In this document: one piece after another, positions 28,058 to 49,673 of the stretch
Position numbering within the stretch: position 1 is the stretch's first letter
How the letters are laid out: each line of letters starts with the position of its first letter
Source of the DNA: a virus
Direction: 5' to 3' (one strand)
IMG/VR virus record: IMGVR_UViG_3300032304_000826
Span: 1 to 64,000 of that record
DNA length: 64,000 nt
Position numbers and translations under genes: made by a program
The notes under the pieces: generated by a model
What the model was told of the DNA's origin: nothing
Databases searched by the model: none
Seen by the model: only the letters and a program-made list of their open reading frames with translations

Positions 28058-29623
28058 TTACGCCGTAGCGTTTCCTGTTAGCTGACCAAGTTTGATGACA
28101 ATAAACTCTGCTGGGTACTCTAGAGCTACGCCAATTTCGATGTTGACGCGACCTGAAGTAAGGTCAGCAGAACTGTTTGTTGATGCATCGCACCGTACAT
28201 AGAAAGCCTTGTCTGGACTTGATCCACGAAGTCCACCCTGTTGCCAGTATGAACGTAGGAAAGAGCCAAGAGCAACACGAAGCTGAGACCATAGACGTTC
28301 GTCATTGTTCTCAAAAATCGCAAATGAGCTTCTATCTGTCATTTCTTTCTTGATGTATGTTAGGGAGCGACGTACGTTGATGTAACGGTCTCCCGGGGTG
28401 TTGTTCATTGTACGTCCGCCCATTACAACAATTCCGGCACCAGGTACTTGACGGATTACGTTAACTGGACGTTGTGAGACGTTCAAGGAATCTAGTTGAG
28501 CATTAGTTAGTTGACGTTCTGCAGCTACTGCAAGAGCTACGCGGTTTGTATAACCGGCAGGAGTCTTGAATACGCCACGAGAAGCATCAGTAGCTAAGTA
28601 CTGGCCTACCATTGCAGCACCAGGTGCTTGATTACGAGTTGCAGCAGCTGAGGCACGAAGTGTGTCTGGGATGGTTACCCATGGGTAGTAGACGGCAGCA
28701 CAGCCACCATCAGATGCGGCAATAAATGCTGCAGTTACGTCATTTGCATATGTTTGAGCCTCAGCTGGTGTAAGACCTGCTGGGGTATCTACAACCGCAA
28801 ATGCATCTCCACGGCCTTCGCAATAAGCTACAAGGTCTGCTTGAACGTTAATAGAGAGTGTTCGCTCAGTAGTAGTTCCAGCAGTAGTGTAGATGTATGC
28901 AGCGTTTGGTACGTTAAATACCATAGGATTGTCAATTGGGTCAAATGACTCAAGAGCCGTTGAGTACTCAGTTCTTGTTGGTGCAGATCCGTTAAGGCCT
29001 GATGAAAGAGACTTTACTCCGTCAACCTTAGGCATATCATCTGGAGATACAGAAGCTGAGTTTAGATCAGATACTATAATAACGCCAGATTGTGAGTTAA
29101 TTACTGATACCACGTAGCGTGGATCAGTAGGATCCATGCTTAGATCTGTGTATTGCTCAAGAATATTAGAGGTTGCATTACCACCAATAGTTGGAGCTCC
29201 ATATACTACAAGAGAGAATCTATTTACTACTCCCGCAGCTTTTGTTTCTACAGATAGAAGATTTCCCCAAGTACCAGCATTTGCAGCTCTTACTAGGAGG
29301 GTGTTTAGGGGTGTTGCAGCACGATCAGTCAATGTTACCTGAGCCTGTGCAGCACCTGTTCCTACTACACGCTTTACGTATAGTTGACGGCCGCCATTGG
29401 CAAAAAAGTTATAGGCAGCCCAAGTTGTTGGATAAGCGTCTTCTAGAACTCCAAAAGTCTTGGTAAAATCTGTCCAAGAGTTTAGAAGAACAGGGTTAAC
29501 TGAAGGTCCCTTTGATAGTGGACCTACAAATGCTCCAATAGCGTTTCCGCTATCTGCAAGAGTTACCGCCTGTGGAAGTTCAACTTCCTGAATGAAAACG
29601 CCGGGTCTACTGTATGTAGCCAT
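28058..29623 (-). CDS. Tail sheath protein
   Basis: A 521-residue contractile sheath protein. N-terminus YSRPGVFIQEVELPQAV with GAFVGPLSKGP is the family start; the C-terminal third has GDRYINVRRSLTYIKKEM, FAIFENNDERLWSQLRVALGSFLRSYWQQGGLRG and FYVRCDASTN...GRVNIEIGVALEYPAEFIV, the core handshake region conserved from T4 gp18 to R-pyocins. Presence of sheath, tube, J, gp25 and gpD proteins establishes a myovirus-type tail. Confidence 0.95.
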   Translation of the reverse strand: MATYSRPGVFIQEVELPQAVTLADSGNAIGAFVGPLSKGPSVNPVLLNSWTDFTKTFGVLEDAYPTTWAAYNFFANGGRQLYVKRVVGTGAAQAQVTLTDRAATPLNTLLVRAANAGTWGNLLSVETKAAGVVNRFSLVVYGAPTIGGNATSNILEQYTDLSMDPTDPRYVVSVINSQSGVIIVSDLNSASVSPDDMPKVDGVKSLSSGLNGSAPTRTEYSTALESFDPIDNPMVFNVPNAAYIYTTAGTTTERTLSINVQADLVAYCEGRGDAFAVVDTPAGLTPAEAQTYANDVTAAFIAASDGGCAAVYYPWVTIPDTLRASAAATRNQAPGAAMVGQYLATDASRGVFKTPAGYTNRVALAVAAERQLTNAQLDSLNVSQRPVNVIRQVPGAGIVVMGGRTMNNTPGDRYINVRRSLTYIKKEMTDRSSFAIFENNDERLWSQLRVALGSFLRSYWQQGGLRGSSPDKAFYVRCDASTNSSADLTSGRVNIEIGVALEYPAEFIVIKLGQLTGNATA

Positions 29624-32273: not shown

Positions 32274-32482
32274 TAGTCCTCCTGAGGAGCGGTAAACGTA
32301 CCGGTCTCTGGGTCGTAGGTGCTGCTAATAAATACGCCACCCTCTACATCGGTTACGTCAACCATTAGAGGTTCGCTTAAAAATATAGCTGCTAGACGAT
32401 CATCTGTATGGATGATATCTACTACCTCATTGTCAATAATAAATGCGACTTTATTTGGCGGCATGTTAGGTGCAGTAGTCAT
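32273..32482 (-). CDS. Small hypothetical protein (69 aa)
   Basis: ATG 32482 forms a TAATG overlap with the upstream zinc protein and is preferred over 32521. The sequence (NKVAFIIDNEVVDIIHTDDRLAAIFLSEPLMVDVTD...) is an acidic alpha/beta small domain of a type common in phage structural clusters (a viral 'I-I-D-N-x-V-V-D-I-I' two-strand start). Function unknown. Confidence 0.6.
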   Translation of the reverse strand: MTTAPNMPPNKVAFIIDNEVVDIIHTDDRLAAIFLSEPLMVDVTDVEGGVFISSTYDPETGTFTAPQED

Positions 32483-32724
32483 TAGATCTCTTCCTTGTAC
32501 GATATTTGTATGGCTTCCCACTTATGCAGTGGGCAAGAAGCATTAGGCAGCTTTGTCTTTAGCTTCATTATACACCCGCACTCTTTGCACTGCGAAGTAG
32601 ACTTTATAAATCTATCGCAGCCTTTGCAAATGTCTAGGCGCTCTGAAGCAAGCTCGTTTTCTACACGGCCTATGTTTTTATTAAAAAGGTCCCACGGCCT
32701 AGCAGGTCTTGTATTTTCAGTCAT
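32482..32724 (-). CDS. Small zinc-finger protein
   Basis: An 80-residue protein with C-x2-C (CKGC), then C-x2-C-x-C (CKECGC), and a final SCPLHKW, giving enough Cys/His for one or two zinc sites. The pattern R-L-x-I-C-x-x-C...C-x-x-C-G-C-x-M-x-x-K...A-S-C-P-L-x-K-W is one I know from many phage genomes. Its role is not known to me; it lies between the Cys-rich beta-sandwich gene and the connector genes. Confidence 0.75.
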   Translation of the reverse strand: MTENTRPARPWDLFNKNIGRVENELASERLDICKGCDRFIKSTSQCKECGCIMKLKTKLPNASCPLHKWEAIQISYKEEI

Positions 32725-32732
32725 TGCTCTCC

Positions 32733-34478
32733 TTAAATTGTTCCCAGGAAGTTATCGAGTGTTGATCCTTGAGACCCTGTTGAAGGGGCCTTAATTATAC
32801 CTACCGAGGTCCCCTTTGTAGGGCTGGTAGGCGTAATAACTATATTTGAGCCTAGTTGGCTTGTCAATCCTGCAGAAGCGTACGCCTTAGCGGTAATCTG
32901 GTTTCCAACAGTAGATACTATCAAAGAGCCTACAGTAGTGTAGGTAGTGTTTGTGTTGGTAGCTAGTCGGGTGGAGGATTGGGAAACTACGTTTCCAGAG
33001 ACTGAGCTAACTATAACTAAGTCTGTAAAGTAGGTAGTATCTCCACCAGAGTAAGATACGCCCGAACAACAGCCAGATGGCGTACACCCTGCTCCCGAAC
33101 AGGTAGCCTGTCCTCCAGAGCAAGAGCTGCTTGTTGCTATTTGATTTTGATTTAGGCCTCCGCACGCACCGCCGGAGTAGCAGTTAAACCCGATACAAGA
33201 CGCAGAGCCTGAACAGCTGCTAGAACTTACAAGCGTTGCACAGGAGTATGTTGTTGGAGTAGATGAAGAAGTAGTATGGCAATTGTAGTAATCAACGGGC
33301 ACCGTATTAGTGCTTTGGATATAGTTTCCAATGCATTTTCCTCTACTAACTGTTGAGGTCTGACAGTTATCCCAGCAAGGAATGTATGATGTTGAACAGT
33401 TTCCACTACAGCTTACGGTAGTGCCACCACTACCGGTCCTACAGCAAACAAACGCGGCATTGTTAATACAGCCTGCAGTTGATCTAGATACTTCAACGTC
33501 TCCTGGAGCGCAACCTTCTCCACCAATAAGTGGGCTTTCTGCGGGGTAATAAGAGAACCCGCTACCTCCAGTAGTTACCGATCCGGAACATTGAGTTCCA
33601 CAAGCTGGTATAGAATATGAAGTTGATTGAACAACTCCTGAGCATTGCGTACCACAGGCTGGGGTGGTATAGGTAGTTTGAGTGGTTGTACTTTGGTCAT
33701 AGGCTGTTCCTGGACAACAAGGGGAGCTTGGACTACCGACCCAACCTATAGAAAAATTTGTATAGTTACAGTAAGAGTTATCTACACTTTGATTTTGTGT
33801 AAACGCATACGTAGCGCCGCAACCTGAAGCGCAGCTGCTAAGAGTAACGCTGTTTTGAAAACTAGTACAGTTTAGGCTTCCTGGTGACGAAGTGACCGGT
33901 CCGCAACATCCTGAAGGAACACAGCCAGTGCCGCCTCCAGCACACGGGCTAGAAGTTCCATAACTTTGACTGCCTGAACAAGATGTCCCAGAAACGGTTG
34001 TATTCCAAGTAGAGTAGTAGTAACTAAAAGATTGAGATGTCGTGCAACTTCCTACAATAGCTGAAGTAGACTGAGTATATTGAGGATATGTAGCCCACCA
34101 AGATCCAGAGTCTGTTACCCAGAAAGCAACGCCAGTACCGCCTGAAACATCTGCCTGTGCAGAGATATCCGTGTTACCTAGATTAGCTGAGGCTATTGCA
34201 TAAGAGCTTCCAGCATCATCTGAGATAGCTGAGTTAGACCCACTAATACGCCAGTTACCACGAAGAGCTGTCCATACCTGTCCGCTATCTGCAGTGCCTA
34301 ATCCAGTTACTGTAGATGCTCGGTTAAACGCGTCTTGAACTTTAGAGGCAAACCATTGTCTCCATACGCCACCAACTTTAACGAATGCAGAAGTAGCGGT
34401 TTTCCATTGACCGCCTACTTTTACTGAAAGACCAGATGTGGTCCTCCAGGTACCGTTAACTTTGGATTGACCTGGCAT
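32733..34478 (-). CDS. Tail/virion beta-sandwich protein with large cysteine-rich insertion
   Basis: A 581-residue protein. Residues 1-45 are three short W-x-x-x repeats (KVNGTWRTTSGLSVKVGGQW type). Residues about 46-135 and 480-575 look like the two halves of one concanavalin-A/LamG-like sandwich: DAFNRAST...LGT..G..W near the start, GTGVAFWVTDSG before the break, then TTYFTDLVIVSSVSGNV and NQITAKAYASAGL after it. Between them residues 145-471 hold about 36 Cys in 327 residues (CC pairs, CSG, PACGTQCSG twice, SGCCxG twice), while the flanks have none. Probably a virion adhesin or decoration; disulphides or metals are inferred. Confidence 0.75.
   Translation of the reverse strand: MPGQSKVNGTWRTTSGLSVKVGGQWKTATSAFVKVGGVWRQWFASKVQDAFNRASTVTGLGTADSGQVWTALRGNWRISGSNSAISDDAGSSYAIASANLGNTDISAQADVSGGTGVAFWVTDSGSWWATYPQYTQSTSAIVGSCTTSQSFSYYYSTWNTTVSGTSCSGSQSYGTSSPCAGGGTGCVPSGCCGPVTSSPGSLNCTSFQNSVTLSSCASGCGATYAFTQNQSVDNSYCNYTNFSIGWVGSPSSPCCPGTAYDQSTTTQTTYTTPACGTQCSGVVQSTSYSIPACGTQCSGSVTTGGSGFSYYPAESPLIGGEGCAPGDVEVSRSTAGCINNAAFVCCRTGSGGTTVSCSGNCSTSYIPCWDNCQTSTVSRGKCIGNYIQSTNTVPVDYYNCHTTSSSTPTTYSCATLVSSSSCSGSASCIGFNCYSGGACGGLNQNQIATSSSCSGGQATCSGAGCTPSGCCSGVSYSGGDTTYFTDLVIVSSVSGNVVSQSSTRLATNTNTTYTTVGSLIVSTVGNQITAKAYASAGLTSQLGSNIVITPTSPTKGTSVGIIKAPSTGSQGSTLDNFLGTI
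33066..34046 (-). repeat. DNA encoding the Cys-rich insertion with internal short repeats
   Basis: This segment encodes residues 145-471 of the beta-sandwich protein. It repeats short units such as PACGTQCSG (twice within 25 residues) and G-C-[VT]-P-S-G-C-C (at both ends), plus many C-S-G triplets. Confidence 0.7.
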
Positions 34479-36690: not shown

Positions 36691-36801
36691 CTATTCTTCT
36701 GATGCGAATACTAAGTCGTATCCGATTACTGCTCCTGATTCATCCTTGATTTCAAACTTTTCTGCCCCAGTAGCTGGGTCAATACCTAAACTAGTTCTCA
36801 T
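36691..36801 (-). CDS. Small hypothetical protein (36 aa)
   Basis: Reads [20 protein letters not shown] then [16 protein letters not shown]. Start ATG 36801 overlaps the fibre stop as ATGA, and the glycosyltransferase follows 10 nt later with its own SD. The phage-like start (L-G-I-D-P-x-T-G-x-x-x-F) and coupling support a real gene despite its size. Function unknown. Confidence 0.6.
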
Positions 36802-38321
36802 GCAAATCGTCCCCAAACTCCGATGTTGCTAGCTGTAAAGCTAGACGCTGTTGATGGAAGGTTAGTCTGTAGTGCCACAGCTCCAGTAATTCTTGGCTCT
36901 AGAGCACTTAGTGCTGCTGGAGGATTATTGAAGGCTGTGTACACAGTTCCTGGGGTTGAACCTACTACAAGTACTGCTAGAGCATATCTATTACCAGCTA
37001 CAAGTTGATACGAAGTATCTAGGTTTCTTGTTGATGCTGTGTTAGTTGAGCTAAAGACAGTAGTGTCGTTTGCAGTAGATGCAACTAGGGTAGCAGTACC
37101 ACCGCTGAGGGAATATAACCCAAAGCGGACAAGAGAGGTTCCAGTGGAAGCTGTGCCCGCAGAAATTGCGGTGACGCTGCTAATAGTTGTTGTCCATAGA
37201 GGACTAAAGAAAGTAAAGTAAACAGTGCCGCTTGTTAGGGTGGCGTTAAAGTTACCTGTACGTGGATATACATCAACAATAGAAGTTGTCTGGTTTAGGT
37301 TACCCGCGTTATTAGCGAATAGGTCCTTCCATAAAAGTCCTGTTGCTGCTGAAGAATCTGCGGTTAAAGCAAATCCGTTTGTTCCTACGCCTAGTCTAGT
37401 TATGGTGTTAGAAGCAGTAGCAGCTAGTATGTCACCCTTTGCTGTAGCTAAGTTCATGCCCAGAATGTTTGTGGTGGCTGTAGGCAAAGTTAGGGTGCCG
37501 GTGTTAGAGATAGTAGAAATTACTGGGGTCGTAAGAGTTAAGCCCGCTACTGTTGTAGTCGTTGCGCCCAGAGTAAGTGCTGTAGATCCTAGTGTTAAGC
37601 CAGAGTTAGCTAATTTAACGTTAGTCACGTTAGCGTCTACAATCTTTTCTGTAGTAACAGATAGGTCTGCCGGAGTTCTAACATCTGAAAGACGAGTGTC
37701 ATTTCCATAAACTACCTGGGTAGATGAAGCATTTCCAGAAGCTGGAATGTCTTTTGTAGAGGCAGTTCCTAGACCTGTTACTTGGGTATTAGCAATAGAT
37801 AAAGATGATTGGTTAATGCCAATAACTGCTGCGGTAGATGTACCAGCATTAGTAATTGGGCCTGTTACAGAGATTACGCCTGAAGGTCCAGTAACTGTGC
37901 TTGCCGCTCCTGTTGGGCCCGTAACACCTTCAGGACCTGTTGGTCCTGTAGGACCTGTGACTGTGCTTGCTGCACCAGTTGGTCCTGTAGGACCAGTGGG
38001 ACCAGTTGGACCGGTAGGGCCCGTAGGACCAGTTGGACCAATAGGTAAAACTAAATTTAATGTTTGACTAGGGGCAGTTCCGCTTATAGATGCGCCAGCA
38101 CCAGCTCCAGATGTTACAGAGCCAATTGTTAAAGTATTTGCCGCACCTGTTGGTCCAGTTACGCCAGAAGAATAAGGAAGTGCGTTCCACCCTTGTGTAC
38201 CGTTACCGACTTTAAAACGACCAGTGTCGTACTCGTAACCTACTTCACCCTGTGCAAGAATTGGGTTAGCGCCAGTCCACGCAGAAGCAGTATCACGTCT
38301 AAATTGAACACGAACAGCCAT
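36798..38321 (-). CDS. Collagen-like tail fibre with Mtd-type N-terminus
   Basis: A 507-residue fibre. Residues 1-50 ([40 protein letters not shown]) match the N-terminal attachment domain seen in Mtd-like and other phage tail fibres. A collagen-like Gly-Pro-Thr tract covers about 93-150. The rest is Ser/Thr-rich beta repeats, ending in a jelly-roll-like tip ([19 protein letters not shown]...). Gly-Pro-Thr triplets form triple helices. The following gene is a glycosyltransferase. Confidence 0.85.
37905..38045 (-). repeat. Collagen-like Gly-Pro-Thr tract (coding)
   Basis: About 45 codons of tandem G-P-T/G-x-x triplets inside the fibre gene, repeating in DNA as GGACCNACN-type 9-mers. The same unit is at 38430-38590, 45680-45990 and 49700-51460, so these are the main recombinogenic repeats of the window. 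Confidence 0.85.
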
Positions 38322-38330
38322 TTAAGCTCC

Positions 38331-38693
38331 TTAACCTAACACATTTCCACAGTCAATGATAGAGGAGCCACCGTACAAAGTCGTAGCTGTACCACCATCT
38401 ATATTTTGAAAGATCGGACCTGTTGGTCCTGTTTCACCGATTGGTCCTGTTGGACCTAACAATCCTTGAGATCCAGTTGGGCCTGTAGGTCCGGTGGGAC
38501 CTGTAGGGCCGGTTGATCCAGTTAAACCTGTTGGTCCAGTTGGACCTGTAACTGATAGACCTATAGGACCAGTTGGGCCCGTAGCTCCTTGAGCAACTCT
38601 AATTCTCCATACAGCGCCATCCCAAACCCATACCTGCTCAGCAGCAGTAAATACCTGGTCAAGGGTAGGGGAGTCTGGAAAGTCAATGGGCAT
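38331..38693 (-). CDS. Collagen-like fibre protein (120 aa)
   Basis: Opens [20 protein letters not shown] and [12 protein letters not shown], a short cap domain shared with the 45626-46093 product ([14 protein letters not shown]...[12 protein letters not shown]). A Gly-Pro-Thr collagen tract spans about 37-95 and the end is [18 protein letters not shown]. It lies just before the Mtd-type fibre, so it may form its shaft or a separate short fibre. Confidence 0.8.
38430..38590 (-). repeat. Collagen-like Gly-Pro-Thr tract (coding)
   Basis: Tandem G-P-T/G-x-x triplets in the 120-residue fibre protein. Confidence 0.8.
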
Positions 38694-38702
38694 GTTTGTA
38701 TT

Positions 38703-39086
38703 TTATTGGTAAAGCCACATATCTTCAGGCTCTACCCATATCTTGTTTAATGCTTTGTAGTACCCAAGTTCTTGCATACGCTTATATACAGCTTTGCCTG
38801 CTCCTGGACCATAATAGGTCTCTACCCCATAACCCATAGCTTCTTTCTGATTGCCCACCCTAACCATGTAAAACTCTGCATACGGGCTCCAAGCAGCGTA
38901 TACGCCGTGTGCTCCGCCCCGTTCTTCAATTAATTCCCATATATCCACATCTTCTATCTTCATTTCACGGGCATAGTCCCAATTAGTTTTAGGTGGTAGT
39001 ATCAGCTTGTCAGAATCCATCCAATTAGGATCAAAGACTTCGCCAAAGTCTGTAAAGATATTGGCAGTTGATTTAAATATAGGCAT
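38703..39086 (-). CDS. Hypothetical protein, aromatic-rich (127 aa)
   Basis: Start ATG 39086 is preferred over 39101 because a -10 element (TATACT) ends exactly 6 nt before it, as in leaderless genes; neither start has a ribosome site. The protein (PIFKSTANIFTDFGEVFDPN, then DIWELIEERGGAHGVYAAWS, GVETYYGPGAGKAVYKRM) is Trp/Tyr-rich with an acidic end and is a type I recognise from other large phages without a known role. It is divergent from the carbamoyltransferase. Confidence 0.65.
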   Translation of the reverse strand: MPIFKSTANIFTDFGEVFDPNWMDSDKLILPPKTNWDYAREMKIEDVDIWELIEERGGAHGVYAAWSPYAEFYMVRVGNQKEAMGYGVETYYGPGAGKAVYKRMQELGYYKALNKIWVEPEDMWLYQ

Positions 39087-39106
39087 TGGAATAGTATACA
39101 TCTATG
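39068..39106. promoter_or_regulatory. Symmetric divergent promoter, apparently leaderless in both directions
   Basis: On the plus strand TTGATT (39068-39073), 18-nt spacer, TAGTAT (39092-39097), then 6 nt and the ATG at 39104. On the minus strand TATACT (39098-39093) then 6 nt and the ATG at 39086. The two -10 boxes share bases inside one near-palindrome. Neither gene has a Shine-Dalgarno site. No clear -35 is seen for the minus direction. Confidence 0.5.
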
Positions 39107-40723
39107 AACATCTTAGGCATATCACCAAATCATGATAGTTCTGTATGCCTACTCTCTGATGGCCGTATTAAATACTTTTCAAAAGAAGAGCGGCTATCTA
39201 GAGTAAAAAGAGCGGCTGACCCTAATTTAGCTACGCAAGAGGCCCTAAAGTTAGGGCCTATAGATCAGGTTGTTTGGTGCCCCCCTACTCAAAATCCCGA
39301 TTATCGAGATGAGTTTATAGGCGATTACTTTAAAGGCATGGAAGTAACTGTTAATGACCTGTCTGATTACCACCACTTAACCCACGCAAGTTTAGGGTTT
39401 TACAACAGCGGGTTTACCGAGGCAGCCGTAGTTGTTGTAGACCGCAATGGCTCTATCATGGGAAACTCATGTAGAGAGTCAGAGACTATTTTTATGGCCT
39501 CTTACCCAGCCACGTTTGATCAAGTATACAAAAGTTTTTGGATATACGACAATACCGCACATCAAGAGGCCCTATTGTTTAAAGAAAGAAACCCAAAGTG
39601 TGAGGTAGATGTTAGGTCTATGTACGGAGTAGTTAAAGTCTACGAAACTGCTACCGCGTTAATTAGACAACATGTTTTAGAAAATGGAAAAGTTATGGGT
39701 CTTTCTGCATATGGAAATAAAGATGCAGAGTTTGATCCGTTATTTTTTAGGGGAAACATACCCAACGATTACTACTTTGGGCATGAAGAAGTAACCAATC
39801 GAATTGCTACCCATCAAGAGTTACAGCTATTTGCTACAAATGTAGTAACTCCAGAAAACTTTCAAGTATACGCAGACTATGCGTGGCAAGTTCAAAAGCA
39901 GACTCAAGACGCAGTCTGTTACCTAATCCAAAAAGCTATAGATAAAACAGGTTCTAAGAATGTAGTTATTACTGGTGGCTACGGGATGAATGTAGTTGCC
40001 AACCATTATTACCTGACTAAATTCCCAGATATTAACTTTTTCTTTGAGCCTTTGGCTGATGACAGTGGAAACAGCATAGGTGGCGCTATGTTTATTCACA
40101 GGCTTCTTACTGGAGACACCTCTGTAAACCCTTTAAACACAACGTTTTTTAGTGGCAAACACCACTCATTAAAGAGTATTCATGGGCTACCAACACAAAC
40201 CAAAGATGTTGCAAAGTTACTTGCCAACGGTAAAAGTATTGCTGTATACCGTGGGTTGGCTGAGGCTGGGCCCAGAGCGTTAGGCAATAGGTCTATCTTG
40301 TTTGATCCTAGGAATAAAGATGCCAAAGAGATTGTTAATAAGATTAAGAGACGCGAGTGGTACCGTCCATTTGCAGCTATGGTTCTAGAAGAAGATGCCC
40401 ACATGTACTTTGATATGGGAGCAGTAACTTCAAGCCCTTATATGACTATCTCATTTCCAGCAAAACAATACGCTGTAGATAACATTCCGGGAGTAATACA
40501 TGTAGATAATACCTGCAGACTTCAAACAGTCTCTAAGTCAGATGGGTATCTCTATGAGTTGTTGTTAGAGTTTAAAGCGCTAACAGGTCACGGAGTTATT
40601 CTTAATACAAGCTTTAATTTAGCGGGAGAGCCTTTAGTAGAAACTCCAGAGGAAGCAATTAAAACATTACGTAATTCAACTTTAAACCATGTATGGTTTG
40701 AAGAAAAAAACGTTTTAGTTTAA
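39104..40723 (+). CDS. Carbamoyltransferase (NodU/TobZ/CmcH family)
   Basis: A 539-residue enzyme that uses carbamoyl phosphate and ATP to carbamoylate a hydroxyl, usually on a sugar or antibiotic. The N-terminal Kae1-like domain opens MNILGISPNHDSSVCLLSDG and carries the HH-x2-HA metal motif (YHHLTHASLGFY, about 89-100). The C-terminal domain has GLAEAGPRALGNRSILFDPRN (about 384-404) and RREWYRPFAAMVLEED, both family signatures. It is the only plus-strand gene among the fibre genes, with its own promoter and no SD. Its substrate may be a sugar attached by the nearby glycosyltransferase. Confidence 0.9.
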   Translation: MNILGISPNHDSSVCLLSDGRIKYFSKEERLSRVKRAADPNLATQEALKLGPIDQVVWCPPTQNPDYRDEFIGDYFKGMEVTVNDLSDYHHLTHASLGFYNSGFTEAAVVVVDRNGSIMGNSCRESETIFMASYPATFDQVYKSFWIYDNTAHQEALLFKERNPKCEVDVRSMYGVVKVYETATALIRQHVLENGKVMGLSAYGNKDAEFDPLFFRGNIPNDYYFGHEEVTNRIATHQELQLFATNVVTPENFQVYADYAWQVQKQTQDAVCYLIQKAIDKTGSKNVVITGGYGMNVVANHYYLTKFPDINFFFEPLADDSGNSIGGAMFIHRLLTGDTSVNPLNTTFFSGKHHSLKSIHGLPTQTKDVAKLLANGKSIAVYRGLAEAGPRALGNRSILFDPRNKDAKEIVNKIKRREWYRPFAAMVLEEDAHMYFDMGAVTSSPYMTISFPAKQYAVDNIPGVIHVDNTCRLQTVSKSDGYLYELLLEFKALTGHGVILNTSFNLAGEPLVETPEEAIKTLRNSTLNHVWFEEKNVLV

Positions 40724-41661
40724 ATTTGATACCTAACAATTACCACGCCAGATCCACCGTTTCTACCGTTCGTAGTGTTAGTATTTCCTGCTTCACCAGT
40801 TCCGCCGCCACCGCCGCCTAATCCATTAGTTCCTGCAGTTGCTCTTGCTGAGTTAACGTTGTTAGACCCAAGTCCGCCACCACCAGAACCGCCATTAGGT
40901 TCTCGTTGCCCATCCCAAGAAGTTCCTCCACCGCCACCTGCGTAAAATGTAGAGTTGCCAGAAATAGAGTACGCACGTCCTGCGCCCCCATCCCCACCAC
41001 CAACTCCGTTTGCAGCGTTTCCGCCTGCTCCACCTGCTCCGCCTCCGCCACCAGTTGGGTAACCGTTACCTGAGGCCGCACCAGAGCCACCAGCGTTACC
41101 GTAACCTAAGCCACCACCAATATTTCCTTGAGTGGCTGCGCCACCCGCACCGTTACCGTAGTTTCCGCCGCCTCCAGATCCGCCGGCTAAACCTAGGCTA
41201 TTTATTGACTCGCCTGACCCGCCACCACCGCCATTAGCAACAATGTCAGAGATACTTGAATTTCCACCATTCAAACCGTTACCAGCTGAGGTGTTGTCTC
41301 CACCATTACCTACAACAACAGAGTACGACGCTACTGGAAGTGATTTTGCTGAATGATACACAAGTCCACCGGCTCCACCGCCACCGTTGGTGTTGGACTG
41401 AGCGCCAGAGTTTCCTCCACCGCCTACAACTAGTATTTCTGCTGTAAGGGTTAGTGCAGAGTTGAAAAATGTATAGGTTCCGCCAGTTACGGCACCTGTA
41501 ACAAACGTATGGGTTCTATACCCACCAGCTGTTACAACACTGCCACCAGTTATAGAAGCAGGATTTTGTCTTAGTGCTTCTGATATGGCAGCACCTACAC
41601 CCACACCTTTATTTTCAGAGGTTGCACCAAAGGTTCCTCTCACGCTACTTACAAAAGGCAT
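40720..41661 (-). CDS. Glycine-rich tail adhesin (313 aa)
   Basis: Opens [20 protein letters not shown], has a beta region with the motif GGYRTHTF...VGGGG, then about 200 residues of Gly-rich (GGGGGSG, GGAGGNA) sequence and ends GGSGVVIVRYQI. Such proteins resemble T4-like gp38 adhesins, where polyglycine II helices pack and loops bind host receptor. Clearly paralogous to the 46093-46956 product. Its stop codon overlaps the convergent stop of the carbamoyltransferase. Confidence 0.85.
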   Translation of the reverse strand: MPFVSSVRGTFGATSENKGVGVGAAISEALRQNPASITGGSVVTAGGYRTHTFVTGAVTGGTYTFFNSALTLTAEILVVGGGGNSGAQSNTNGGGGAGGLVYHSAKSLPVASYSVVVGNGGDNTSAGNGLNGGNSSISDIVANGGGGGSGESINSLGLAGGSGGGGNYGNGAGGAATQGNIGGGLGYGNAGGSGAASGNGYPTGGGGGAGGAGGNAANGVGGGDGGAGRAYSISGNSTFYAGGGGGTSWDGQREPNGGSGGGGLGSNNVNSARATAGTNGLGGGGGGTGEAGNTNTTNGRNGGSGVVIVRYQI

Positions 41662-41671
41662 TTACTTCTCC

Positions 41672-44569
41672 TTAGAAGTTGAGGTTAGCAGAACCTAACA
41701 AGGTGTATGCAGAAGATCTACGAACTAGTGTAAGAGAAAAAATATCAATTTTTCCACTTGAAGACGTAGGAGTTGGGGTAAGTCCAGCTGCCCACTTCAT
41801 GGTTATAGCAGATCCGTTTACAGTAAATGTTGATGGGACATAACCTGTTGCGCCTTGAGTTACTAGTACGTTTATGGTAAATACGCGACCATCGGTTGTT
41901 GGAGCATTTGTGATATTCCAAGTCATGTTAGCGGAAGGAGTATTTGTAGTCCAGAAAATGTTACCTGCGCTATAGTCGAGAGTAGCTACGTTTGACGATA
42001 GAGTTACGTCTACAACGTCTTCAATCATTTCCTGAACACGAACTCCACCAGTAAAGGTTGGGGTTCCAGTAAACGAAGGTGCTCCAGAGAATACTGGGGT
42101 ACCAGAGAATGTTGGGTTACCAGAGAATGTTGCATCTCCAGCAATCGTTCCACCAAAGCTGTTTGAAGAACCACTAAGTGTTAAGTTAGCAATGCTGTTA
42201 GATCCAGCTGTAGAGGTTAATCCTGTAGATAGGGTAGCTGTAGTAGCTGTAATTGCTCCAGTACGTATAGCATCATATACAAGTCCAGCGTTTGTAAAGT
42301 CAACAGTTGTTCCCGGAGCAACAGTTAGGCCATCAAAGAACTTTGTAACGCCGTCAGATGCATCACGAACAATACCGTAGTATCTGCGTTCACGAGTCTT
42401 AGTAGCTGTTCCTGCAGGAGATACTGCAGCTGAAGTTACGTTAGCAGCACCAGTTTTTCTATAGCTAAATGTTGTAGCAGAAGGAATTGCGCTTACAACA
42501 TAAGTTCCGTTGAATGTAGCGTCCACACTTGTTACTACAACAACGTCTCCTACAGCATATGTATGGGATGCGGTTGTAGTTAGTGTAGCTACTTCAGAGG
42601 CGATTACCTTGTTGCTTACAGAGCGAACTACGTTAGATACGGCAACTGTGTACTCTGAAACAAGACCTAGATCAATAAGGTCATCAGTGTTGTTAGCAGC
42701 TGTACGAACTAATGAGTCTGCAGTTGAAAGTGTGTCAATAACTGTAGTAGTTCCAGAACCACCAAAGGTTAGGGTACCTACGATTGCAACGTTACCTGCA
42801 ATATTCATAGCACCTGAAATACCAACGCCACCAACTACGGTAAGAGCACCAGTTGTAGGAGAGGTAGAAGGTGTTGGAATTTCTAAGTGAACATTTACAC
42901 CAGGTGTAATTTCAAGTTGGGTGTCGCCAGAAGCGAAACCACCGGCTGCAAAAATAATCTTGTTTTGAGTTCCCTTATCGCCAGTAGCAAATACTAGGTT
43001 ACCTTGTGCGCCATCGTTAAAGGTTACGCTTCCAGCAGGAGATACTGCTGCAGAGGTTACGTTTGCATTTGTCTTTGCATATCTAAAGGTTGTAGTAGTA
43101 GGCACTGCAGTTACGTAGTAAGTGCCGTCAAATGGGGCACCTACGCCAGTAATAACTGCCTTAGCCCCTACAGAGATGCCGTGTGCAGCTCCTGTTGTAA
43201 GAGTAGCAACGTTAGAGGTAAGAGCCTTATTTGTAATAGTTTTTGTTACAGTCGCTGGCGCCTCGTGGAAGATATACGCATCGTTTGGACCAGTAATACC
43301 GTAGGTTTCTGCATCAAAGTCTGATCCAGTAATACCGAAGGTTGCCCAGCCACTACCGTCATCTCCGTTGTTAGAGAAAACCTGCATGTCTGCAGAAGAG
43401 GTTCGGTCCGTGTTGCGGAATGCTAATTGAGCAAAACCACTTTCTTCTGCTCCATTGCTAAATTGACGAACTTCTACTGCGTTAGTAAGAGCAGCGTCTG
43501 TCTCAAAAGTAGGCGCATCGGTGCCCGCAAAAACTTGATCATTAGCGGTAAGGGCGTCTACTGTTACGTCAGATACCCAAGTAACCGCAGTTCCATCATT
43601 AGATAGGAATTTGCCAGCTTGAGCTGAGTAGTCTGGGAAAGTACCTGCAGCTAAAACGTCCCAGTTAGCGCCCACTACTGGAGAGTTACCTGTTGTATTT
43701 CTCTTAGCAATCCAAGAAGATCCACCAAAAGTAACAATATCGTTTTTATTGTAAGTAGTTAAGGCGTTATATGTGCCCTTCCAAGAAATACCTTCAATGA
43801 GCACCGCCCAATAAAGAGTATCTGTTGGTGCACTGTTTAATGAGTCTGCAATAGCTACGTATACAAGACCACCGTAGTTAACCACGTCTCCTGATTGATA
43901 ACTAGTCAATGAAGACCATGTGCCCTCAAATTGGAAACCTTGGCTAAATAATGCCCAGTTAGTTACGTTAGTTGGAACTACTCCAGTAGAAGCGACAATA
44001 TTAATATACGCTTTACCGCCATAGGAAACGATATCGTTTAGTTTATAAGTGGTTCCTGAAGCGTAAGCGCCCTTCCATTCAACGCCGTATACAAGAATTT
44101 CCCAGTTAGCGTTTCCAGTAGCGGGAATAGAAGCAGAGTTGTTATTAGAAGCAATCCAAATGTTACCGCCGTGCTTAACTACGTCGCCTTTTTGATAAGA
44201 GGTGCCTGAAGCCCAAGTGCCCTCATACTGAATACCGTCAACAAAAACAGACCAATCTGAGGTTTCAGTTACAGGGTTATCGGCTAAAGTGTCTCGCAGA
44301 GCAATGTAGATCTTTCCACCAAACGAAACTAAATCTGAAATTAAATATTGAGTTGATGAAGACCAAATACCTCGGTAGTTAAAACCCTCAACCATTAGAT
44401 CCCAGAATGAGGTGTCTGTTGGGAGGTTGCCTGCAGTTGCAGTAGATAGTTTATAAACATAAACGTTACCACCATAGGTGACCACATCGTTACGCTCATA
44501 CGTTGTGCCGCTTGCGTAAGATCCGCGATAGTCAAAGCGGAATTTGCCCAGATCAAGAATCTGTGCCAT
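41672..44569 (-). CDS. Modular tail fibre with six chitin-binding-like repeats (965 aa)
   Basis: Residues about 9-315 hold six tandem ~50-residue modules of the pattern [FWY]-x-x-[GA]-x-[WY]-x-x-x-T-x-Y-x-x-x-D-x-V-x-x-G-G-x-x-[WY]...P-x-x-x-x-x-W-x-x-[LF]-x-x-G, like carbohydrate-binding ChtBD3/CBM5 units. Then comes a fibre body with two copies of a ~65-residue unit (SNVATLTT...GDVVVVTSVDATFNGTYVV...TTFSYRKT) and a C-terminal beta tip ending LGSANLNF. Paralogous to the 46961-49039 fibre, which has a single module. Confidence 0.85.
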   Translation of the reverse strand: MAQILDLGKFRFDYRGSYASGTTYERNDVVTYGGNVYVYKLSTATAGNLPTDTSFWDLMVEGFNYRGIWSSSTQYLISDLVSFGGKIYIALRDTLADNPVTETSDWSVFVDGIQYEGTWASGTSYQKGDVVKHGGNIWIASNNNSASIPATGNANWEILVYGVEWKGAYASGTTYKLNDIVSYGGKAYINIVASTGVVPTNVTNWALFSQGFQFEGTWSSLTSYQSGDVVNYGGLVYVAIADSLNSAPTDTLYWAVLIEGISWKGTYNALTTYNKNDIVTFGGSSWIAKRNTTGNSPVVGANWDVLAAGTFPDYSAQAGKFLSNDGTAVTWVSDVTVDALTANDQVFAGTDAPTFETDAALTNAVEVRQFSNGAEESGFAQLAFRNTDRTSSADMQVFSNNGDDGSGWATFGITGSDFDAETYGITGPNDAYIFHEAPATVTKTITNKALTSNVATLTTGAAHGISVGAKAVITGVGAPFDGTYYVTAVPTTTTFRYAKTNANVTSAAVSPAGSVTFNDGAQGNLVFATGDKGTQNKIIFAAGGFASGDTQLEITPGVNVHLEIPTPSTSPTTGALTVVGGVGISGAMNIAGNVAIVGTLTFGGSGTTTVIDTLSTADSLVRTAANNTDDLIDLGLVSEYTVAVSNVVRSVSNKVIASEVATLTTTASHTYAVGDVVVVTSVDATFNGTYVVSAIPSATTFSYRKTGAANVTSAAVSPAGTATKTRERRYYGIVRDASDGVTKFFDGLTVAPGTTVDFTNAGLVYDAIRTGAITATTATLSTGLTSTAGSNSIANLTLSGSSNSFGGTIAGDATFSGNPTFSGTPVFSGAPSFTGTPTFTGGVRVQEMIEDVVDVTLSSNVATLDYSAGNIFWTTNTPSANMTWNITNAPTTDGRVFTINVLVTQGATGYVPSTFTVNGSAITMKWAAGLTPTPTSSSGKIDIFSLTLVRRSSAYTLLGSANLNF
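43636..44545 (-). repeat. Six tandem carbohydrate-binding-like modules (coding)
   Basis: Six diverged ~150-bp units encode the repeats described for the 965-residue fibre; units differ in sequence but keep Trp/Tyr, Gly-Gly and the closing Trp. Confidence 0.8.
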
Positions 44570-44847
44570 TAGTAAACCTCCATTAGGATATGACCGGTTG
44601 CGTTAACGCTAAACCTCAGTGTATTATTGCTCCACATCCAGTTGAGGTAGTCATCTGAACGTACAGAGAAAGAGCTATCACCTAGGTTAATAGCAGTTCC
44701 ACCGGCAATAATATCAATATAAGTCTTGCCTGTATCGATGTCTTGACGAGCACCGTAGAATACTTTATCGGCAATATCCTCAAGATCAGAGGTATTTAGG
44801 GTGCCTGCCGCCCCGTCAATATTTATAAACTGCGGTACTAGAGGCAC
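44569..44847 (-). CDS. Small fibre-cassette protein (92 aa)
   Basis: Reads PQFINIDGAAGTLNTSDLED near the start and ends TLRFSVNATGHILMEVY. The closing beta strand resembles the 49040-49312 product (DQLIMEVE), occupying the same slot in the other cassette. Coupled to both neighbours by TAATG. Role unknown, likely fibre assembly or cap. Confidence 0.6.
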   Translation of the reverse strand: MPLVPQFINIDGAAGTLNTSDLEDIADKVFYGARQDIDTGKTYIDIIAGGTAINLGDSSFSVRSDDYLNWMWSNNTLRFSVNATGHILMEVY

Positions 44848-45287
44848 TACTTAACTCCTTCTGACAGCTCGATGTGAAGTGTAATAATATCCTCAAATGG
44901 GCAGGTAGCGTATAGCTTATCCCCAGTATTAAGGACAAAATCTGGAAGCACCTTGTTATACCCACTAGAAGTAGGGTTTCCGTCTTCCCCGACTCTGGAA
45001 TCTCCAGATACCACAGGAAGAACTACAAAGTTATTTTTCAAAACACGGTTTTTAGCAAGCAAATGCTTGACAGTTGGGTTGCCGCGCCCAACATAAACTT
45101 CTACTGGAAGGATTCCAGTGTCGCTTGCCCCAGTATGAATAGCGACAATTGAGTTGACGCGAGTCTTAGAGGTAGCGGTAAAAATAGTAGTAGCAGTAGA
45201 TGCTGCCGTATCAGTGACAAGGAAGCTAATGCTTTTAGCAGTTCCCGCAGAGGCTACTGCGTCAACTGGATATGCGTATCCTGGCAT
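44847..45287 (-). CDS. Small virion protein (146 aa)
   Basis: Opens MPGYAYPVDAVASAGTAKSI, with VNSIVAIHTGASDTGILPVEVYV and NFVVLPVVSGDSRV in the middle and a beta C-terminus. Same general plan as the 109- and 112-residue paralogues (an N-terminal beta strand set with a central Pro-Val-Glu-Val-x-V), but too diverged to call homologous by eye. It belongs to the first fibre cassette. Confidence 0.55.
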   Translation of the reverse strand: MPGYAYPVDAVASAGTAKSISFLVTDTAASTATTIFTATSKTRVNSIVAIHTGASDTGILPVEVYVGRGNPTVKHLLAKNRVLKNNFVVLPVVSGDSRVGEDGNPTSSGYNKVLPDFVLNTGDKLYATCPFEDIITLHIELSEGVK

Positions 45288-45295
45288 TTACTCTC

Positions 45296-45625
45296 CTAAG
45301 CCGTCTGATCTATTCCCTGGACGTAAAAGGCCATTCCTGCTGGTCCAGCAACCTTTACTACATCTGTTGGGTTTACGCCAAATCTAAATGTTTCATAGCT
45401 ATTATACGCAGGCACAATTAACTTATGTGCTATTAACCCATAGCCAGTTTCTGAGGCTCCTGAAGGAATTACATATACATAGATCTCTGCATCAGCTTCG
45501 GTAGTATTAGTAGCTATAACAGAGATTAAATAATAATCTGTAGAGGTAAACGCGGTAGTTCCAGAAGAACCGTAGGCTACTGCTGAAGATAGGCGTGTTA
45601 CCGCTAAACGTTCAATGCCTGCCAT
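45296..45625 (-). CDS. Small virion protein (109 aa)
   Basis: ERLAVTRLSSAVAYGSSG then YLISVIATNTTEADAEIYVYV and NSYETFRFGVNPTDVVKV form an all-beta domain like the 35283-35621 and 49312-49644 products. Sits between a 146-residue relative and a collagen-like protein. Likely a small decorating or trimerising domain of fibre cassette one. Confidence 0.6.
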   Translation of the reverse strand: MAGIERLAVTRLSSAVAYGSSGTTAFTSTDYYLISVIATNTTEADAEIYVYVIPSGASETGYGLIAHKLIVPAYNSYETFRFGVNPTDVVKVAGPAGMAFYVQGIDQTA

Positions 45626-46093
45626 TTATATTCCTAACCACCATGAGATTGCAGCACTGCCTGCACTTGAAGATCCAGCAGGACCGGTTGGTCCAATTAA
45701 TCCTTGTGGGCCTGTTGGGCCTACTGATCCAGTAGGACCTGTAGATCCTTGTGGAGCTGCGCCGGTTTCAACCCAGTATCCATCATAATAAATAAAAATA
45801 CTGCCTGTATTTGGATCAAACCAAGAATCACCAGCCACTGCATTAGCAGGTGGCGTTCCGGTTGTTGTTGTCCAACGACCTAAAGATCCAGTTGGTCCAG
45901 TAGATCCTGTTGGTCCAGTAGGACCTGTTGCACCAGTATTACCCGTTAAACCTGTGGGACCAGTTGGACCCGTTGGTCCAACTACAGGTGTACGAATTAC
46001 GTTCCAAGTAACACCATCCCACTTCCAAGTAGTATTACCAGAAGTAAATTCTTGATTGAGTGTAGGTGAATTAGGAAAATCAATAGCTGGCAT
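45626..46093 (-). CDS. Collagen-like fibre protein (155 aa)
   Basis: Cap domain [20 protein letters not shown] with [12 protein letters not shown], related to the 38331-38693 product; Gly-Pro-Thr tracts at about 38-70 and 117-145; between them [19 protein letters not shown] and [10 protein letters not shown], a short base domain shared with the 617-residue collagen-like protein. Stop overlaps the following gene start as TAATG. Confidence 0.8.
45680..45990 (-). repeat. Two collagen-like Gly-Pro-Thr tracts (coding)
   Basis: G-P-T/G-x-x triplets flank a short non-collagen linker in the 155-residue protein. Confidence 0.75.
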
Positions 46094-46956
46094 TAGATTG
46101 GGTACCTAATAATCACGATACCAGAGCCGCCCCTACCTCCATCAGATAAACCGGATGTACTTCCGCTTCCGCCACCTCCACCGCCAAGACCATTTGTGCC
46201 ATTGCCACCAGCACCGTTGTTACCGCCAGCTCCGCCCCCACCACTACCCCCTGATGATGCAGTTCCACCTGAACGGTTAGCGCCCCCACCGCCACCAGCA
46301 TAAAAAGTACCAAATACAGAAAGCCCTGCGCCTCCAGAACCAGCGTTTCCCTCACTAGGAACATATCCTCCAGCAGCTCCTGCGCCACCGCCACCAGCCA
46401 TACTGCAACAACCTCCAAAGGAACCTCCACCATTATTTCCTTGACCTGCAACACCTGTTCGTACTGATTGATAAGATGGGTGACCTACCCCACCTCCAGA
46501 ACCTCCATTTGATGCTGGAGCAGAACCATTACCACCACTTACCTGTTGTTCTCCAGCACCATAACCTCCACCGAAGGATGTTAAACCAAATGCTGTGCTG
46601 TCTCCGCCTTGGGTAGGCATTGAAGAGCCACTTGAACCGTTTCCATAATTTCCAACAACAATTGAGTAGTTAGTAATTGATACATTTAAGCTTCCAGTAA
46701 GCAGACCTCCCGCACCTCCGCCACCGCCTTGGTACCCACCACCACCGCCCCCACCACCAGCAACAATTAAGTATTCAACTGGTCCTGATTGATCTGGGGT
46801 AAAAGTAGATGTGCCCACAGCAGTAAAAGTATGTATGCGGTAACCACCTGCGATTGTAACTGTTCCACCAGTAGAGCCAGTGCCTATACGACCAGTTTGA
46901 GTTTTTCGTTTTCCTTGGCTGCCGTAGCTTCCCCGAACAGAGCTAACAAAAGGCAT
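46093..46956 (-). CDS. Glycine-rich tail adhesin (287 aa)
   Basis: Paralogue of the 313-residue adhesin: [19 protein letters not shown] start, [16 protein letters not shown], a Gly-rich core ([25 protein letters not shown]) and [12 protein letters not shown] end. Expected to form a polyglycine sandwich with host-binding loops. The loop content differs strongly between the two copies, as expected for alternative receptor specificities. First gene of the second fibre cassette. Confidence 0.85.
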
Positions 46957-46960
46957 TTAA

Positions 46961-49039
46961 TTACCCCCAGTTTAAGTTAGCGGAGCCTAGTACGGTCCAT
47001 GCGCTAGAAATACGAACTAGTGTAAATGTGAATACATCAATACGTCCAGCAACACTTGTTGGGGTTGGGGCCGCTGCCGCAGTCCATTTAATAGTTTGAG
47101 ATGTTCCCGCAATAGTTAATGCGCTTGGAATATAGCCAGTTGCACCTTGGGTAACAAAAACGTTAATGGTCATAATCTTATTGTTATCAGTAGGCACGTT
47201 TGTAAGAGCCACTGTAAAGTTTGCAGAAGGTGCGCTAGCAATCCAGTAGATGTTACCTGTAGACCAATCGCAAGCTGCTGAGTTAGAAGTAATAGTTGTT
47301 GCTACTAATGCTTCACGCATTTCTTGAATGTCAACTGTTCCGCTTAGTGATACTAAACCCGATGCGGTTAGTCCACCAACCTGTAGATCCGCATAAGCAG
47401 CCCCAGCTTCCGCAAAGTTTACAGTTGTAGTTGGTTTAGTTGTAGCGTCCTTAAAGATTTTAAATACGCCATCAGAAGCGTCACGAACTGCACCGCCGTA
47501 GTATCTACGGGCAGCTACCGAGCTACTGCCTGACGCAGCAGCTGAAGATACGTTTGCATTGGTTTTAGCATATGTAAATGTTGTTGAGGTAGGCACTGCA
47601 ATAATTGAGTAGGTACCGTTAAATGTAGCATCTACGCCAGTTATAACAGCCACATCTCCTGCACGATAGTTATGGCCAGCAGAGGTAGTAAGAGTTGCCA
47701 CATTTGAAGTTAACGCTTTGTTAGTAATTGTGCTAACTAGCGCTGCAATTGTACTTGCGTACTCAACTACTAAGCCTTCGTCAACAGCATCTGCTTGATT
47801 GCTTATACCAGAGAAGATCATAGGCGCAACAACTGCTAGGTTATCCGTAGTAGTAGCTCCTCCACCAAATGTGAGGTTACCAACGATAGACATATTACCT
47901 TCTACGTTGACGCTGCCTTGAATACCAACACCACCGACTACTGTTAAAGCACCTGTTGTAGATGAGGTAGATGGGGTATCAATTTCAATGTGTACGTTTA
48001 CATCTGGGGTAATTGACATTTGCTCATTGTCAGAAGCTAAGCCTCCAGCAGCAAAAATAAGCTTGTTCTCACTACCTTTGTCACCAGTAGCAAATACAAG
48101 GTTACCCTTACCAGTAGTTCCTACAGGAGCTTCTAGGAAAATGTAGCCGTCGTTTGCGCCAGTAATTGTAAACTCGGGGTCGTTAAAGTTAGAGGATGTA
48201 ATACCCATGTCAATGTAGCCAGCAAAGTCTGTACCATTATTTGCATAAGCAATGTAATCAGTAGATGAGTTTGTACCATTTCCTGAGTTTCTAAATGCAA
48301 TTTGTGCAAAGTCATCATCTGCATCAATAGCATATACAGCAGCTGCGTTGGTATATCCAGGAATAGTGGTTATTGTTCCTACAGTTGCTTGTGAAGCAAT
48401 ATTTCCTGCAGTCTTATCAAAAGTAAAGGTATTTAAAGTAGGCGTAGCGGTAATTTCATATGTGCCATCAAACGCAGCGTCTGCTGGGCTAAGGGCAATA
48501 GTTACGAACTGAAACGGGGCAAATCCGTGTGCGGTAGATGTAGTAATAGTCGCTACGTTAGAGGTCAAAGATTTTGTTTGAGCAGTCTTAGTAACAGTAC
48601 CTAAAGTTTCAGCATCTGTACGTGCTCCAGGACCTACGTATAGCTCTCCCGCAGTTGAGCCAACATCAAGGTCTCCGGTTACTCCAAGAGTTCCAAAAGA
48701 GTTAGACCAAGAGGCAGCAGTTCCGTCTGTCTTTAGAAACTTACCGGCGTTGCCTGTTTGTGTTGGGACTTGGCTTACAGTTGCAAACTGAAATGCAGAG
48801 CCAGTTGTCTGTAAGAATTGACCGTTTGTTCCTGCTGTAGGATCTGTGTACCCATCAATCATCTTAGACCAGTAGGCTGTATCTGTTGGGGCGTTGCCCG
48901 CGGTAGCGCCAGTGTTGATATAGGCGTAAAGGTTATTAGTGTACTTAACTACATCGTTAAGCTGGTATGTAGTGGCACCGCTATAGGTTCCCTTATAGGT
49001 AAAGCGAAGCTTACCTAAGTTAAAAATCTGAGCAGCCAT
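46961..49039 (-). CDS. Tail fibre with one chitin-binding-like module (692 aa)
   Basis: Opens MAAQIFNLGKLRFTYKGTYS, with one ~50-residue carbohydrate-binding-like module (to about 63), then fibre body including two copies of the SNVATITT/...DATFNGTYSII...TTFTYAKT unit, and a C-terminal beta tip (about 570-692) ending LGSANLNWG. The C-terminal 120 residues are strongly similar to those of the 965-residue fibre, so the two are duplicates that differ mainly in module number. Confidence 0.85.
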   Translation of the reverse strand: MAAQIFNLGKLRFTYKGTYSGATTYQLNDVVKYTNNLYAYINTGATAGNAPTDTAYWSKMIDGYTDPTAGTNGQFLQTTGSAFQFATVSQVPTQTGNAGKFLKTDGTAASWSNSFGTLGVTGDLDVGSTAGELYVGPGARTDAETLGTVTKTAQTKSLTSNVATITTSTAHGFAPFQFVTIALSPADAAFDGTYEITATPTLNTFTFDKTAGNIASQATVGTITTIPGYTNAAAVYAIDADDDFAQIAFRNSGNGTNSSTDYIAYANNGTDFAGYIDMGITSSNFNDPEFTITGANDGYIFLEAPVGTTGKGNLVFATGDKGSENKLIFAAGGLASDNEQMSITPDVNVHIEIDTPSTSSTTGALTVVGGVGIQGSVNVEGNMSIVGNLTFGGGATTTDNLAVVAPMIFSGISNQADAVDEGLVVEYASTIAALVSTITNKALTSNVATLTTSAGHNYRAGDVAVITGVDATFNGTYSIIAVPTSTTFTYAKTNANVSSAAASGSSSVAARRYYGGAVRDASDGVFKIFKDATTKPTTTVNFAEAGAAYADLQVGGLTASGLVSLSGTVDIQEMREALVATTITSNSAACDWSTGNIYWIASAPSANFTVALTNVPTDNNKIMTINVFVTQGATGYIPSALTIAGTSQTIKWTAAAAPTPTSVAGRIDVFTFTLVRISSAWTVLGSANLNWG

Positions 49040-49312
49040 CTACTCAACCTCCATAATAAGTTGGTCTGTGTTTGTAGTATCCCATGAAAAGTACAGTTCG
49101 TAAGGGGTTAGCGCAGTCGTATAATAAGTGTCCTCAAACCGTGCATATACTGTCCCGTCATCATTTACCTGTGGAACTACAATTTTAGCTGAAGTATCGC
49201 CCCACAAGTACTCTTCTACAGTCAACGTATCCGTTTTTGGATCATATTTAAAACCATAGAAATTCTGCTTTGATTTTGTAGAACTACCTGATAAGGATAA
49301 GAAACCGGCCAT
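49040..49312 (-). CDS. Small fibre-cassette protein (90 aa)
   Basis: Reads FYGFKYDPKTDTLTVEEYLWGD and DTYYTTALTPYELYFSWD and ends DQLIMEVE. Short all-beta protein in the slot equivalent to the 92-residue gene of cassette one. The stop and start overlap or touch neighbours. Unknown function. Confidence 0.6.
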   Translation of the reverse strand: MAGFLSLSGSSTKSKQNFYGFKYDPKTDTLTVEEYLWGDTSAKIVVPQVNDDGTVYARFEDTYYTTALTPYELYFSWDTTNTDQLIMEVE

Positions 49313-49644: not shown

Positions 49645-49673
49645 TGTGTTCCTTCCTAAACTTGATTATTTTA

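Follow-up and report, generated by a model that had tools for sequence, protein, structure and literature searches.

A candidate phage adhesin with a predicted concanavalin A-like scaffold and an exchangeable cysteine-rich loop

Several routes to variation in host-recognition proteins are known in phages. In the T-even type phages S16 and PP01, the receptor loops of the tail-fiber tip protein gp38 vary, whereas its scaffold, a poly-glycine II sandwich that has glycine-rich motifs, stays constant (PMC12892980). In Mtd and other DGR tropism proteins, variation is focused in a phage host-recognition protein and alters its residues via a reverse transcriptase (PMC6199706). In the actinophage Douge, which infects mycobacteria, the baseplate protein BppU provides carbohydrate-binding modules that bind host-surface glycans (PMC13033339). 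Outside phages, the bovine ultralong CDR H3 is a hugely extended beta-sandwich loop of up to ~70 amino acids with a disulfide-rich variable element, in which the number and position of Cys vary between members; its stalk and knob have been solved, and its diversification is somatic, with AID implicated (PMC5994613, PMC12371982, PMC8602281).

The protein analyzed here was found in a lake virus and resembles each of these systems in part. It has a predicted concanavalin A (ConA)-like sandwich and, at the site of one hairpin turn, an insert of 341 residues that contains 36 Cys. The best explanation of the results, with a probability of roughly 0.58, is that this protein is a virion adhesin whose lectin-like scaffold carries a cystine-stapled, swappable, receptor-binding loop.

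Genomic setting, gene and family

The window, meaning the whole 64,000-nucleotide stretch of DNA that was analyzed, comes from a virus record of 102,347 bases (IMGVR_UViG_3300032304_000826, herein referred to as G000). The TerL, portal, and MCP proteins of this virus are 52, 58, and 72% identical, respectively, to those of Streptomyces phage BRock. A tail sheath gene was found, so the tail is judged to be contractile. Three genes of the WhiB family are present, at 419-643 (-) and 9587-9775 (-) in the window and at 78100-78300 (+) in G000. Because WhiB proteins are restricted to the phylum Actinobacteria (PMC6802176), the host is probably an actinobacterium. Another gene of the window (23382-26420, -) encodes a tail protein of 1012 aa in which M23 peptidase and lysozyme-like domains are present.

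The gene of interest lies in a fiber cassette of ~19 kb (window positions 31698-52614) that adjoins the tail genes and is located between homologues of BRock gp142 and gp143, which are neighbors in BRock. The gene block around the candidate adhesin is syntenic in many relatives while the loop varies. The relevant genes of the window are the following:

28058..29623, minus strand: tail sheath (Pfam sheath domains; 33% identity to the BRock tail sheath)
32482..32724, minus strand: DUF6171 rubredoxin-like zinc ribbon, the next gene downstream of the candidate adhesin (Pfam PF19668, E=6e-8; synteny)
32733..34478, minus strand: candidate adhesin gene, product of 581 aa predicted to be a virion protein of ConA-like fold bearing a Cys-rich loop (ORF, orthologues)
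34478-34714 and 34714-35283, minus strand: genes of the upstream conserved block (synteny)
35283-35621, minus strand: tail-fiber-like gene of the upstream conserved block (profile matches, synteny)
35605-36681, minus strand: glycosyltransferase with TPR repeats (phrog_13126), conserved beside the candidate adhesin gene (PHROG, synteny)
36798..51527, strand not assigned: rest of the fiber cassette, with an Mtd-N/collagen protein and collagen-like fibers (profile matches)
39104-40723, plus strand: carbamoyltransferase, on the opposite strand inside the fiber cassette (profile match)

The product of the candidate adhesin gene has 79-80% overall identity to its orthologues. The ORF is judged to be real because the full-length orthologues L002, L004, and L005 belong to the same length class and share the reading frame and flanks as well as the Cys residues, and because dS greatly exceeds dN among these orthologues. 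The first of the 36 Cys is residue 145 (position 34046) and the last is residue 471 (position 33066); residues 1-144 and 472-581 have none. The probability of all 36 Cys falling in a span of 327 residues by chance is 4e-10 (hypergeometric). Cys makes up 6.2% of the protein and 10.6% of its insert, vs 0-3% in the other substantial ORFs of the window. Two repeated motifs, PACGTQCSG and SGCC, occur twice each. The translation thus bears out, to the exact coordinates, the claim of the initial annotation that all 36 Cys lie within 33066-34046 between Cys-free flanks, as well as both of the repeats it named.

In a profile search of IMG/VR, 77 loci were found; with earlier scans included, these represent ~50 distinct full-length proteins, mostly on phage contigs of up to ~100 kb. 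The insert alone, a search that the initial annotation had proposed, retrieved only the known orthologues from IMG/VR. The proposal that the protein belongs to no named family also stands, since no Pfam or NCBIfam match was found for the window protein or for seven relatives. No PHROG match was found beyond the N-terminus, and no relative with a solved structure was detected by sequence, either with the protein or with a 40-row profile. Among the isolate phages of the searched collection, only the N-terminal part was matched, in Burkholderia phages FLC6 and FLC8, and the whole protein in none; a search of isolate phages with the relative L044 gave no match. A profile search of the BRock region found no homologue of the scaffold, and none of the bacterial genome contigs searched encodes a protein of this family.

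The DUF6171 gene is located closely downstream in many relatives and is also found near the Cys-free loops of L081 and L083; this neighbor was therefore rejected as a metal chaperone. In L056 (404-1360), the scaffold ORF continues into DUF6171-like zinc-ribbon sequence, indicating either a gene fusion or a frameshift.

Fold of the flanks and position of the insert

The window protein was divided into the following parts, all encoded on the minus strand:

34350..34478: residues 1-43, putative virion attachment module made up of three V-K-V-x-G-x-W-K-type hairpin repeats (PHROG 25859/36019, AF2)
34062..34349: residues 44-139, predicted first half of the sandwich, closing with strand 126-138 (AF2 models)
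33039..34061: residues 140-480, predicted loop insert in place of a two-residue hairpin turn (alignment of 39 relatives, AF2 hairpin)
33066..34046: residues 145-471, span of the 36 Cys (sequence; 36/36 invariant in 4 orthologues)
33582..33662: residues 273-281 and 291-299, two PACGTQCSG units (three units in the orthologue L005)
33429..33575: residues ~302-350, middle element with FVCC at its end (position set by inspection)
33363..33410: residues 357-361 and 368-372, two CxxNC units (three in L005)
33039..33149: residues 444-480, module that closes the loop (92-97% identity to the orthologues)
32736..33038: residues 481-581, predicted second half of the sandwich (AF2 models)

The natural relative L046, which lacks the insert, was modeled by AF2 from residues 1-245 with 39 relatives aligned (pLDDT 89.1, pTM 0.83). 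The model consists of N-terminal hairpins followed by a single sandwich, in which strands 127-138 and 141-152 are joined by a turn of two residues. The confident scaffold model is thus that of a relative; the model of the whole window protein is poor (pLDDT 38.8) and assigns no structure to the loop, where pLDDT is in the 20s. Strands 126-138 and 481-493 of the latter model are equivalent to the hairpin strands of L046 and bracket the insert. When the 39 relatives were aligned to L046, their inserts entered at one point, close to the hairpin turn at residues 139-140, which is the site of the insert in the window protein and in almost every relative.

The L046 scaffold forms the two antiparallel sheets of the ConA-like lectin/glucanase fold. 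In the PDB, Foldseek matched it to ConA-like domains of GH43, the lectin VIP36, galectin-like coronavirus NTDs, a chain of the Douge baseplate, and the Pan3 tailspike, with modest TM-scores (0.3-0.5) that indicate likeness at the level of the fold only. Among viral models, the matches were proteins of uncultured caudoviruses and minor tail proteins of Gordonia, Arthrobacter, Streptomyces, and Mycobacterium phages. Because the L046 model, the point of insertion in the alignment, and the Foldseek matches agree, the flanks are predicted to be two halves of one ConA-like sandwich, with the Cys-rich part as a loop insert at a hairpin turn. The initial annotation had read the flanks in the same way and had placed the Cys-rich segment at a loop of the fold, and both claims gain support here. 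Of the structure prediction that it called for, the sandwich of L046 came out clearly; the model of the window protein is poor overall but contains the strands on either side of the insert. A Cys-rich part at a terminus, the arrangement that it had set against a loop insertion, was found in one subgroup (L045, L046, and L048), whose members have no loop and instead carry a proline- and Cys-rich region after the sandwich; the window protein and the other Cys-rich relatives are not built in this way. The three proteins of this subgroup contain extended stretches of polyproline, and their C-terminal region has 44 Cys.

The N-terminal repeats probably represent a virion attachment module. PHROG families 25859 and 36019 match residues 4-70 of the window protein, and the repeats form six short strands in the AF2 models of both the window protein and L046; they are missing from L010-L017. 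The setting in a fiber cassette, the repeats common to PHROG families, and the Foldseek matches to minor tail proteins together suggest that the protein is located in the virion.

Loop exchange and the state of the cysteines

Loops of the family vary in length from ~55 to 440 residues; proteins of the L088 type are conveniently small, at 305 aa with 18 Cys. Most of them are Cys-rich, and those of the L011-L017 group, L079, L081, and L084 are free of Cys and contain 22-28% aromatic residues, as if stacking of aromatics at the same site stood in for disulfides. Disulfides are thus not required for the role of the loop in some relatives. Scaffolds with 70-88% identity in the N-terminal flank carry loops with 21-26% identity. 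The dN of the loop is several times that of the sandwich, and dS is high in both.

Exchange of the loop is seen in two pairs of closely related phages. Over 4.4 kb, the sequences of L023 and L025 are nearly the same apart from ~175 nt that encode the middle of the loop (CDS positions 955-1130). This block spans 191 columns of the alignment and has 86 differences, and the remaining 4192 columns together have 18. The swapped block is the non-repetitive middle element that ends in FVCC, at a place equivalent to residues ~302-350 of the window protein, and all 32 Cys are retained. L096 and L095 differ at ~165 positions over CDS positions 260-604, which encode the loop, and at only a handful in the remaining CDS; both loops have 18 Cys. 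In this pair, the loop is one among several variable blocks, and other blocks of sharp difference lie near the adhesin gene (CDS -800 to -400 and +964 to +1138). Because these parts differ on a nearly unchanged scaffold, related phages must trade either the entire loop or just the middle element as a cassette while the scaffold remains constant.

These exchanges bear on the view that the loop is a stabilized spacer or shield, serving protease resistance or reach, with no specific receptor role and with variation by drift in repetitive sequence. The loops are indeed repetitive and rich in Ser, Thr, and Gly, their repeat number varies by whole units, their lengths differ widely, and Cys-free, aromatic-rich loops occupy the same site. 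However, the replacement of cassettes on a near-unchanged scaffold in two close phage pairs is more than slippage would produce, the part swapped between L023 and L025 is not repetitive, and one lineage retains every Cys as other positions change. A spacer or shield is therefore considered unlikely, and the reading as a swappable receptor-binding loop is preferred.

Gains and losses of repeat units suggest an internal order of the loop. Relative to its orthologues, L005 has 19 additional residues with 2 Cys before the middle element and 10-11 with 2 Cys after it; its third CGTQC unit and its third CxxNC unit were gained together. Units were lost in both limbs of L036 relative to L035 and L037, and were gained in both limbs of L058 relative to L065, L068, and L073. 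In the clade with the CDQ...CC pattern, odd-Cys modules of the first part co-vary with single-Cys repeats of the second part, in numbers that are not exactly equal. This pattern hints at a long hairpin with cross-linked limbs and the middle element at its tip, a reading made post hoc from three clades in which unit counts of the two limbs are sometimes unequal. Modules may also move within loops, as suggested by the resemblance between one that lies close to the end of the window-protein loop and one at the start of the L063 loop (51% identity over 63 aa).

Among the window protein, L002, L004, and L005, all 36 of the 36 Cys are invariant vs 165 of the other 305 loop columns (54%), and the four extra Cys of L005 come from two insertions with 2 Cys each. 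The total number of Cys per loop, ranging from 8 to 64, is even in all 18 clusters (38 Cys-rich members; loop identity between clusters under 40%). By a coin-flip model, p is ~4e-6 for 18/18 even clusters, and ~7e-4 for 16/18 if L057 and L103 are taken as failures, though clusters may share ancestry. For this count, loop boundaries were corrected by hand in L059, L088, L091, L093, L095, and L103, where the script had put one loop Cys on the wrong side. One extra scaffold Cys is present in each of L057, L103, and L045/L046/L048, and those of L057 and L103 were set aside.

The even totals and the conserved positions favor intramolecular disulfides over metal sites or inter-chain bonds, and the loop Cys probably form such disulfides. 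The initial annotation had offered disulfides, zinc or iron binding, and oxidation after release; parity argues for the first of these and against metal.

Tail fibers are usually multimers, and Cys that link separate chains into a cross-linked fiber or net, rather than staple one loop internally, would suit such an assembly. Tail proteins of crAss001 are joined by inter-chain disulfides (PMC10172136), a precedent for this arrangement, which also shows that phage tails can carry disulfides and that virion disulfides would not be new as such. However, bonds between chains place no parity constraint on the Cys of each chain, whereas all loop totals are even, and extra Cys arrive as pairs within one chain; this arrangement is accordingly rated very unlikely. 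Binding of zinc, iron-sulfur, or heavy metals, in spite of several CxxC-type and CC pairs in the window-protein loop and the adjoining predicted zinc-ribbon gene, is likewise rated very unlikely, given the many loop totals that are even but no multiples of 4 (14, 18, 22, 26, 30, 34, and 38 among them) and so do not fit tetra-Cys sites, the single His of the whole protein, the few Asp and Glu of the loop, the lack of a match to any metal-binding Pfam family, and the occurrence of the same DUF6171 neighbor near Cys-free loops.

A search for thiol oxidase (PF04777) gave no match in the phage record, and none in the control genomes either. A small gene for a thioredoxin-like protein that has the motif CVFC is present in G000 (95359-95589, -). 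It was rejected as a folding partner: such genes were found in the records of 7 of 19 relatives, and some phages with Cys-rich proteins have none. No oxidizing partner was identified, because this gene tracks phage lineage and not Cys content.

Proposed mechanism and comparison with known systems

For the preferred adhesin reading, the following mechanism can be proposed. The N-terminal repeats would attach the protein to the tail or fiber apparatus, and its body is confidently predicted to be one ConA-like, lectin-type sandwich. From a single hairpin turn of this body, the 341-residue loop would extend, held by ~18 intramolecular disulfides as the conservation and parity of Cys suggest. These Cys probably oxidize after lysis, in oxic water. 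The outgoing and returning limbs, which would be cross-linked through paired gains of repeat units, may form a stalk with the middle element at its tip. Exchange of loop cassettes would most likely alter host recognition or keep pace with host surface receptors, if the loop has the receptor role proposed for it. A broader reading is put forward only tentatively: a general display system of these lake phages, in which a conserved lectin scaffold takes up, at its hairpin turn, interchangeable cassettes of 55-440 residues with a cystine-stapled stalk and tip, the tips being traded with a change of host recognition and oxidative folding occurring only after release.

Actinobacteria of lakes are abundant and difficult to culture. 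The system appears to be widespread in their phages of ~100 kb and, if the adhesin reading is true, a lectin scaffold with very long, disulfide-rich, swappable loops is a further route to variation in host recognition. The family would then amount to a naturally occurring library, with dozens of disulfide-rich folds unrelated to one another on a single scaffold. It also raises the question of what keeps proteins that have as many as 64 Cys in solution within the reducing cytoplasm, and of how they fold later.

On the preferred reading, the protein would belong to a known kind, phage adhesins with variable loops; in the open-licence PMC literature, neither a description of this family nor a report of this scaffold-and-loop form was found. 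As in gp38, variable loops are combined with a constant scaffold, but the scaffold here is predicted to be a ConA-like sandwich rather than a poly-glycine II sandwich, and the loops are Cys-rich or aromatic-rich. The scaffold match to the Douge baseplate (PDB 8ZDO chain a, E 8e-4), a chain that is presumably BppU, would link it to glycan-binding modules of an actinophage, and no long Cys-rich insert is described for the Douge protein (PMC13033339). Focused variation of a host-recognition protein is shared with DGR systems, and a protein with an Mtd_N domain is encoded in the same fiber cassette; here, however, whole blocks are replaced, with indels. A DGR origin was rejected, as reverse transcriptase (PF00078) is absent from the 102-kb record while control genomes gave matches.

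The nearest functional analogue found is the bovine ultralong CDR H3. In both cases, a long Cys-rich insert occupies one loop of a beta sandwich, and the number and position of Cys vary between members. The scaffold of the bovine loop is an immunoglobulin domain, whereas that of the phage protein is predicted to be ConA-like, and phage loops reach ~440 residues. Variation in the phage family takes the form of exchange between genomes rather than somatic diversification, and the stalk and tip proposed here have solved counterparts in the bovine loop. The likeness represents convergence and not kinship.
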